Positions 51,267 to 51,999 of a stretch of DNA of 64,000 bases are shown in pieces; the first letter of the stretch is position 1; each line of letters opens with the position of its first letter. The translations under genes were made by a program, and so were the position numbers. Location of the stretch: the NCBI GenBank assembly GCA_964035015.1, contig OZ036017.1, positions 3,491,053-3,555,052 on the forward strand, read 5' to 3'. This DNA comes from Corallium rubrum (lineage: Eukaryota > Cnidaria > Anthozoa > Scleralcyonacea > Coralliidae). Below the pieces are notes generated by a model. The model was not told where the DNA came from. It searched no databases and saw nothing but the letters and a program-made list of their open reading frames with translations.

Positions 51267-51314
51267 AACTACAGACGGTACCGTTTCGGCCTTTCGGGCC
51301 TCATCAGTGTAGTG
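51267..51314 (-). ncRNA. Hammerhead ribozyme, inverted unit
   Basis: Minus strand: stem I ACTACA (51313-51308), CTGATGA (51307-51301), stem II GGCC/GGCC with loop CGAAA, GAA, the palindromic stem III ACGGTACCGT, cleavage after GTC at 51274, return strand TGTAGT. All core bases match a type I hammerhead. Confidence 0.88.
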
Positions 51315-51477
51315 CTGATGAGCAGGATGAAGGTAACTGCTATTTACAGTCACCTTTGGTGCCTCACAAATTGCGGGACATCAAAAACCATGCCAGAGCG
51401 CTCAAACTGCAAGCAGTGGGCGTGCGCACAATGCGTAAGCAGTAATGGCTATATATAATAATATAATAAATATATAA

Positions 51478-51619
51478 TAATATATATATATATATATATA
51501 TATATATATATATATATATATATATATATATATATATATATATATATATATATATATATATATATATATATATATATATATATATATATATATATATATA
51601 TATATATATATATATATAT
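51478..51619. repeat. (TA)n between inverted and direct retrozyme units
   Basis: About 70 units, preceded by a TATAATAATATAATAAATAT stretch (51450-51477). Confidence 0.95.
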
Positions 51620-51721
51620 GCGCACGCTCACTGAGCGCTCTGGCATGGTTTTGATGTCCCACAATTTGTGAGGCACCAAAGGTGACTGTAAATAGCAGTT
51701 ACCTTCATCCTGCTCATCAGC

Positions 51722-51767
51722 ACTACACTGATGAGGCCCAAAAGGCCGAAACGGTACCGTCTGTAGT
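51722..51767 (+). ncRNA. Hammerhead ribozyme, first direct unit
   Basis: Stem I ACTACA (51722-51727), CTGATGA (51728-51734), stem II GGCC (51735-51738), loop CAAAA, GGCC (51744-51747), GAA (51748-51750), stem III ACGGT-ACCGT (51751-51760) with no loop, cleavage after C 51761 (GTC), return TGTAGT (51762-51767). Every conserved core base is present. The loopless palindromic stem III implies activity as a dimer, which tandem units supply. Confidence 0.92.
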
Positions 51768-51952
51768 TAGATATCGCTCTATGGCCTTTAGGTCATATTG
51801 AGCGCTCTACAGGATGAGCCATTGCTGCTTACGCATTGTGCGCACGCTCACTGCTTGCAGTTTGAGCGCTCTGGTATGGTTTTGATGTCCTACAATTGGT
51901 GAGGCACCAAAGGTGACTGTAAATAGCAGTTACCTTCATCCTGCTAATCAGC

Positions 51953-51998
51953 ACTACACTGATGAGGCCTAAAAGGCCGAAACGGTACCGTCTGTAGT
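51953..51998 (+). ncRNA. Hammerhead ribozyme, second direct unit
   Basis: Same as the first direct copy: ACTACA (51953-51958), CTGATGA (51959-51965), GGCC-TAAAA-GGCC, GAA, ACGGTACCGT, GTC ending at 51992, TGTAGT. Only the stem II loop differs by one base. Cut at both copies, the transcript would release nucleotides 51762-51992, a 231-nt RNA. Confidence 0.92.
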
Positions 51999-51999
51999 T

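Follow-up and report, generated by a model that had tools for sequence, protein, structure and literature searches.

Insertion ends and a candidate shared RNA hairpin suggest a Penelope-like element as the probable helper of a hammerhead retrozyme in Corallium rubrum

The window analyzed here, a stretch of 64,000 nt from the genome of Corallium rubrum, contains at positions 51268-51998 a locus with three complete type I hammerhead ribozymes, two direct with cuts 231 nt apart and one inverted (Table 1). Copies B and C follow each other head-to-tail on the + strand and copy A lies on the - strand. Only copy C is a whole unit; copies A and B are 5'-truncated, and over the aligned parts they are 94% and 96% identical to copy C, respectively. 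Each copy ends in ACTACA CTGATGA GGCC-loop-GGCC GAA ACGGTACCGT C^TGTAGT, which forms a hammerhead of type I whose helix III has only 3-4 bp. The RNA 3' ends of copies A and C face outwards and both read TGTAGTTA followed directly by TATATA. In the window, a pairing-aware scan with a fixed CTGANGA core and minimum stems, run on both strands, returned these three hammerheads (+ strand, cuts after 51761 and 51992; - strand, cut after 51274). The three sets of hammerhead motifs described in the initial annotation, their order, and the spacing of 231 bases between the cut sites were thereby recovered. TRF placed (TA)n tracts at both outer borders of the locus and between copies A and B, that is, on every side, as had been described, and the ORF list of the window contains no ORF of 120 amino acids or more across the unit, in line with the claim that it has none. 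Elsewhere in the window, an apparent large inverted repeat at 43100-45000 contains three (TA)n tracts and internal palindromes, and no likeness to the retrozyme was seen in it; long minisatellites at 20618-21381 and 31607-32247 have 11/42-bp and 18-bp units, with several frames open.

Table 1. Positions of the retrozyme copies, the Penelope-like elements (PLEs) and their motifs in the window.
Feature	Position	Strand	Evidence
PLE2 hairpin, 11 nt before (TA)n at 4985	4938-4973	+	descriptor, covariance model
PLE1, candidate helper family; tandem units with a period of 2401, identical (100%) over the 2253 bp they share	5063-9716	-	
PLE1 hairpin h1	5091-5126, also 7492-7527	-	descriptor, covariance model
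PLE1 minimal hammerhead-like motif	7547-7590, also 5146-5189	-	by eye, unscored
PLE1 hairpin h2, outer stem GCAC/GTGC	7431-7464	-	model R1, 27.4 bits, E 4e-4
PLE1 copy, inverted, truncated, with its end in (TA)n, immediately ahead of the position of h1	9717-10242	+	
Left (TA)n tract, RNA-3' end of copy A	51240-51267	.	TRF, sequence
Copy A, inverted, 5'-truncated, unit positions 56-231 plus TGTAGTTA	51266-51450	-	94% to copy C
Hammerhead A, cut after 51274	51268-51313	-	pairing-aware scan
(TA)n separating the inverted halves	51450-51619	.	TRF
Copy B, 5'-truncated, without the 11 nt that make up most of hairpin h2	51620-51761	+	pairing-aware scan, alignment
Hammerhead B, cut after 51761	51722-51767	+	Rfam Hammerhead_1, 31.0 bits; pairing-aware scan
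Copy C, complete 231-nt unit	51762-51992	+	query for genome search
TAGATAT box, putative reverse-transcription start; inserts end inside the box, unit position 7-8	51768-51774	+	24/31 arrays
Hairpin h1, PLE-like, GCTC-TATGGCC-TTTA-GGTCATA-TT-GAGC-GCTCT	51776-51808	+	descriptor and PLE covariance models
Hairpin h2, GCTC-ACTG-CTTG-CAGT-TT-GAGC-GCTCT	51846-51872	+	hand-made descriptor only
Hammerhead C, cut after 51992	51953-51998	+	Rfam Hammerhead_1, 28.9 bits; pairing-aware scan
Right (TA)n tract	51999-52077	.	TRF
Degraded PLE 3' end, facing the right (TA)n tract of the retrozyme	52074-52135	-	85% to PLE2 end at 4887-4942

The E-values of the two direct copies with the Rfam model Hammerhead_1 were 1.5e-5 (hammerhead B) and 7.7e-5 (hammerhead C) in 901 bp; because both scores are below the gathering score of 34, a default Rfam scan of the window misses these copies. 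The inverted copy A was matched only by other hammerhead models (Hammerhead_HH9, 21.9 bits, E 0.01; RAGATH-1, 18.0 bits, E 3.7). Scores under the gathering threshold are what would be expected if the motifs were chance or decayed hammerheads within repeats, but the motifs are complete in all three copies, the E-values are low for 901 bp, and 29 of 33 full units from the genome have an intact core. Since the same motif is present in three copies and the unit has at least 117 matches in the genome at E <= 1e-3 (40 scored of 492 candidates), chance hammerheads are excluded; the Rfam scores, the pairing-aware scan and the genome copies together leave this reading with practically no probability. 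A lack of further genomic copies, which the initial annotation had named as a ground for refutation, is ruled out by these matches.

Judged by its sequence, the element is a metazoan non-LTR retrozyme and thus of an already known kind: the type I hammerhead, the 231-nt tandem unit, the dispersed near-identical copies and the size typical of coral retrozymes all agree with the class given in the initial annotation. The new part is the evidence on the helper, not the class of the element. Coral retrozymes from Acropora millepora are described as expressed units of 220-240 bp that form circles, with target-site duplications when present (PMC7229834). The retrozymes of the two corals are alike in having type I hammerheads, units within 220-240 bp, dimers or longer arrays and many copies (Cervera and de la Pena, 2020; PMC7229834), and, as they are set side by side by description, they may belong to the same family. 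Neither a (TA)n rule nor a fixed 3' end nor a hairpin in common with PLEs is described for A. millepora in the parts of that paper drawn on here.

We compared the ends of the retrozyme copies across the source genome, which comprises 474,352,983 bases in 312 contigs. In total, 30 loci were fetched, of which L014 and L015 contained the same arrays as L006 and L011, respectively, and were dropped, leaving 28 loci with 31 arrays. In 24 of the 31 arrays, the retrozyme 3' end lies 7-8 nt past the ribozyme cut, inside the TAGATAT box. Seven arrays are without this standard 3' end at the aligned boundary (L011, two in L012, two in L016, L025 and L030). L025 also has the standard 3' end, but after an internal deletion, and the arrays in L011, L030 and L012 end elsewhere, yet in (TA)n. 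By a fixed rule, (TA)n adjoins the 3' side in 27 of the 31 arrays, as compared to 1.2% of random positions in the window without the two loci, 1.7% in the whole window and 2.6% in the outer flanks of the loci. The 5' ends are variable, and 24 of the 31 arrays adjoin (TA)n on this side. Dimers and longer arrays of the 231-nt unit occur in the genome, and clear head-to-head pairs were seen twice (in the window and in L012), with the opposite order found on contig C8 near 25,526,000.

The long tandem array L016, on contig C203, consists of many diverged retrozyme units, has no (TA)n junction and ends in unrelated sequence. It is the kind of array that satellite DNA would form if it spread at the DNA level, by unequal exchange, (TA)n recombination or circular DNA, and not by current retrotransposition. 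The combination of a fixed 3' end and variable 5' truncation, seen in 24 of the 31 arrays, is at odds with such a process, as is the similarity of the units outside L016: of 44 full units extracted, 11 were from L016 and excluded, and the remaining 33 have a mean pairwise identity of 98.8%. Hairpin h1 is kept exactly in 31 of the 33 units. As the fetched loci are the best matches, these identity and intactness values are biased towards young copies. We consider spread as satellite DNA very unlikely and conclude from the sequences of the copies that the retrozyme is a recent genomic family.

The PLE1 insertion at 4985-10328 resembles the retrozyme locus, in that 2.4-kb tandem units and a truncated copy in inverted orientation are flanked by (TA)n tracts (4985-5062 and 10243-10328). 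A diverged element, PLE2, lies at 3995-4984 and is 69% identical to PLE1 over 707 bp; its 3' end points towards PLE1, with the (TA)n tract at 4985-5062 in between. The PLE1 ORF contains YRDDG and YIG motifs, as read by eye, and its frame is broken into two ORFs in the window. No reverse transcriptase (RT) or GIY-YIG family match to the protein was found in Pfam, and a PDB profile search returned 0 matches. We call PLE1 a Penelope-like element on the basis of the ORF motifs, the tandem and inverted structure and the hammerhead-like motif, with no library match. The last domain of PLE1 has at least 150 matches with 96-100% identity in the genome (150 scored of 2889 candidates), and more than 20 of the 150 listed matches are in open frames of 734 or 755 amino acids. 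Among these 150 matches, neighbors within 6 kb are arranged head-to-head in 29 cases, tail-to-tail in 1 and on the same strand in 20, of which 17 are spaced 2393-2401 bp apart.

At 30 fetched PLE1 loci, 35 boundaries were read, of which 3 are tandem read-throughs and 32 are terminal. All 32 terminal 3' ends lie in (TA)n; 16 are located before h1 and 15 before h2, each at a TATAT box 2 nt ahead of the hairpin, and 1 is located elsewhere. The two end points, which account for 31 of the 32 terminal ends, are 63 nt apart. Two PLE-type hairpins with the same spacing of 63 nt as in PLE1 (7519 to 7456) were found in a PLE whose contig is assigned to a Solemya symbiont, and this PLE presumably comes from the bivalve host. 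The genome contigs yielded two PLE relatives (L001 and L002) in 29 stretches, both of them animal-type PLE sequence in bacterial assemblies and probably host contamination. In viral contigs, a PLE alignment search found 16 stretches, none of which encodes a relative, and there were 0 matches to two hammerhead patterns.

The retrozyme and PLE1 have the same insertion target and the same 3'-end rule, with (TA)n at 27 of the 31 retrozyme arrays and at every terminal PLE1 end. The target common to both elements could reflect a general preference. Several LINE-type non-LTR retrotransposons also have RT ORFs in the window, with RVT_1 domains at 874-1779 and 41380-42192, and LINEs are named as possible helpers in PMC7229834; an element of this type might be what moves the retrozyme. 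In our comparison, which covers the ends of the retrozyme and of PLE1, the retrozyme 3' ends nevertheless match those of PLE1 in target, in position and in the adjoining hairpin, and we regard a LINE helper as unlikely. The two elements also occur together. In L008 and L061, a truncated PLE1 fragment with its own (TA)n end lies on the same strand, after a retrozyme whose end reads TGTAGTTA-(TA)n; in L053, the retrozyme and PLE1 are about 300 bp apart. PLE-type hairpins were located inside 3.2-kb retrozyme loci in L004, L008, L013, L028 and L031. A tRNA-like sequence at 14583-14654 (Rfam, 43 bits), perhaps a tRNA-derived SINE, seems by eye to recur in reverse in L004, between a PLE tail and the retrozyme.

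The PLE hairpins follow, with some variation, the plan TATAT-nn-GCNC-stem-loop-stem-TY-GNGC-ACTYT. Directly after the mapped 3' junction, the retrozyme reads TAGATAT-C-GCTC-TATGGCC-TTTA-GGTCATA-TT-GAGC-GCTCT, and a second hairpin with the same plan is located 70 nt further on. The motif was noticed by eye, and the descriptor was written and the tests were made afterwards. With this descriptor, there were 7 matches in the window, at PLE and retrozyme places only, as compared to 2 matches in 100 shuffled windows. Among 15 matches to the PLE hairpin (11 distinct), 5 of 8 pairs had changed on both sides, and 97.6% of the cells were paired, in an alignment that was fitted to the structure, which favors the covariation count; its rows from L013 (two), L028 and L031 are model matches in the neighborhood of retrozymes, and their status as PLE ends is presumed. 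In one unit of the satellite L016, the PLE form GAGCACTCT is present, and the score of this unit is 25.7 bits.

Three PLE covariance models were built without the retrozyme, from 2 (R1), 6 (R2) and 15 (R3) sequences. Retrozyme h1 was the top non-PLE position in the window for all three, with 15.6 bits and E 0.39 for R1, 18.9 bits and E 0.02 for R2, and 18.3 bits and E 0.061 for R3. The significance across the window is modest, the match being short and the E-values rough, and these values gain weight only because the match sits at the mapped insertion point: when the search is limited to about 20 of the 128,000 strand positions, at the junction, the probability of a chance match is roughly 3e-6 to 6e-5, again on rough E-values. 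Retrozyme h2 was not listed by R1, R2 or R3 in the window. A weak model match at 36673-36709 was taken as chance after its sequence had been read. Pairwise similarity gave mixed results. The retrozyme was significantly similar to the PLE2 end (3 of 2000 shuffles as good), but not to the PLE1 tail (547 of 2000 shuffles as good, with the reverse complement scoring equally) and not to the truncated PLE end at 52066-52140, which is cut short ahead of the hairpin (1099 of 2000). Taken together, the models indicate with moderate strength that the retrozyme shares the start-site RNA signal of the PLEs. The outside reverse transcriptase to which the initial annotation had attributed the spread of the unit is thus supported, and the insert ends, the PLE1 ends and the hairpin models narrow it to a Penelope-like element.

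The hammerhead, the TA box and the hairpin occur in the same order in the PLEs, where the hammerheads were identified by eye, and in the retrozyme. The same order would be seen if the retrozyme had descended from a PLE terminus, the hairpin being a relic and another enzyme copying the element now, and a derivation of retrozymes from PLEs by reduction has been proposed in a review (PMC11722881). In recent copies, however, the end is still located at the box that adjoins the hairpin, and the hairpin has been retained without change in nearly all units (31/33), which leaves the relic hypothesis a slim chance.

Folded as a circle, copy C is predicted to be compact (-76.6 kcal/mol, z -3.1), and only 1 of 300 shuffles was as stable. 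A fold of this kind would suit a viroid-like RNA with RNA-to-RNA replication, of which the genomic copies would be by-products, and replication of this type has been raised in a review (PMC7761336). On the strand opposite to copy C, the pairing-aware scan placed no hammerhead, and RNA-to-RNA replication alone does not explain the (TA)n junctions; we consider it highly improbable that the element is viroid-like. For the majority unit, the best fold was -83.5, as compared to -75.8 with the ribozyme forced, in a prediction that ignores tertiary contacts; in the best fold the core pairs with CUCAUCAG, a pairing that could protect the circle. In copy B (51709-51735) and copy A, the sequence reads CTCATCAG-CACTACA-CTGATGAG, in which pairing of the core with an inverted repeat of 8 nt is possible; the paired form may be an off-state by which the circle would be spared.

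We consider it likely that the retrozyme is non-autonomous and is copied as a circle by the protein of the resident PLE1 family, and we infer from the insertion ends and the hairpin that the PLE protein would reverse-transcribe the circle. Read-through RNA of loci with two ribozymes would be cut into 231-nt monomers, which a host ligase would close into circles, as has been published for other metazoan retrozymes (PMC7229834). The PLE1 protein would recognize the hairpin of the retrozyme RNA and nick both strands of (TA)n, and cDNA synthesis would be primed on the TAGATAT box beside the hairpin, where one mismatch would account for the observed TGTAGTTATATA. Copying would go round the circle, often more than once, and give rise to tandem, 5'-truncated and sometimes head-to-head inserts. 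Because the copied RNA of 24 of the 31 arrays crosses the cut site at its 3' end, the template was not a cut linear monomer, but a ligated or uncut RNA. A linear monomer would yield almost no cDNA, since the start box is only about 8 nt from its 5' end and copying would run off. A circle or an uncut multimer would therefore be needed, and it is for this reason that the ribozyme and the ligation would matter.

In SINE-LINE pairs, the 3' end is shared, and the small RNA borrows the recognition signal of its helper. Unlike in these pairs, the signal of the retrozyme is at the 5' end of the cut monomer, and it precedes a copyable template only in a circle or an uncut multimer. PLEs have previously been proposed as helpers of retrozymes on the basis of common hammerheads, tandem copies and coexistence (PMC7229834), while a later review states that no conserved motif indicates the helper (PMC7761336, section 7). 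Within the parts of the retrozyme and PLE literature that our survey covered, with subscription papers outside it, neither retrozyme ends in (TA)n nor a hairpin in common with PLEs was described.

For the purified PLE of Anolis, PAc, internal initiation of reverse transcription at two adjacent sites, cutting of AT-rich DNA and extension on both strands have been described (Frangieh et al., 2024; PMC11167929). This element has a hammerhead, a stem-loop at the start and a "tail" between the two starts, which may be compared with the two end points of PLE1, 63 nt apart. As a PLE, PAc encodes its own protein, whereas the retrozyme does not; furthermore, PAc starts in an AC-rich stem-loop inside its ORF that is not homologous to the cut DNA (PMC11167929), whereas the putative starts in the elements studied here are TA-rich like the target. 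The endonuclease-containing Penelope elements of Adineta vaga (Arkhipova et al., 2013; PMC3846280) are likewise found in tandem and in head-to-head inverted copies, mobilize other sequences in trans and prefer simple AT-rich targets, but the sequences mobilized in that species are described as host genes between pLTRs and not as ribozyme circles (PMC3846280).

Beyond this family, animal retrozymes may well be circular-RNA parasites of PLEs, with the hammerhead existing to make a PLE-readable circle from a start module at the 5' end. Such a module would consist of the TA box and the bulged GCTC/GAGC hairpin and would be useless until the circle is closed, when ligation would set the ribozyme half ahead of the start site and thereby create an endless template. 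The insertion rule and the hairpin in common with a recently spread PLE put a name to a candidate helper and supply a short RNA as a target for mutation, and the question of the helper becomes testable in vitro by the kind of assay that has already been published for a PLE. The proposal would also supply a reason why retrozymes need a circle.
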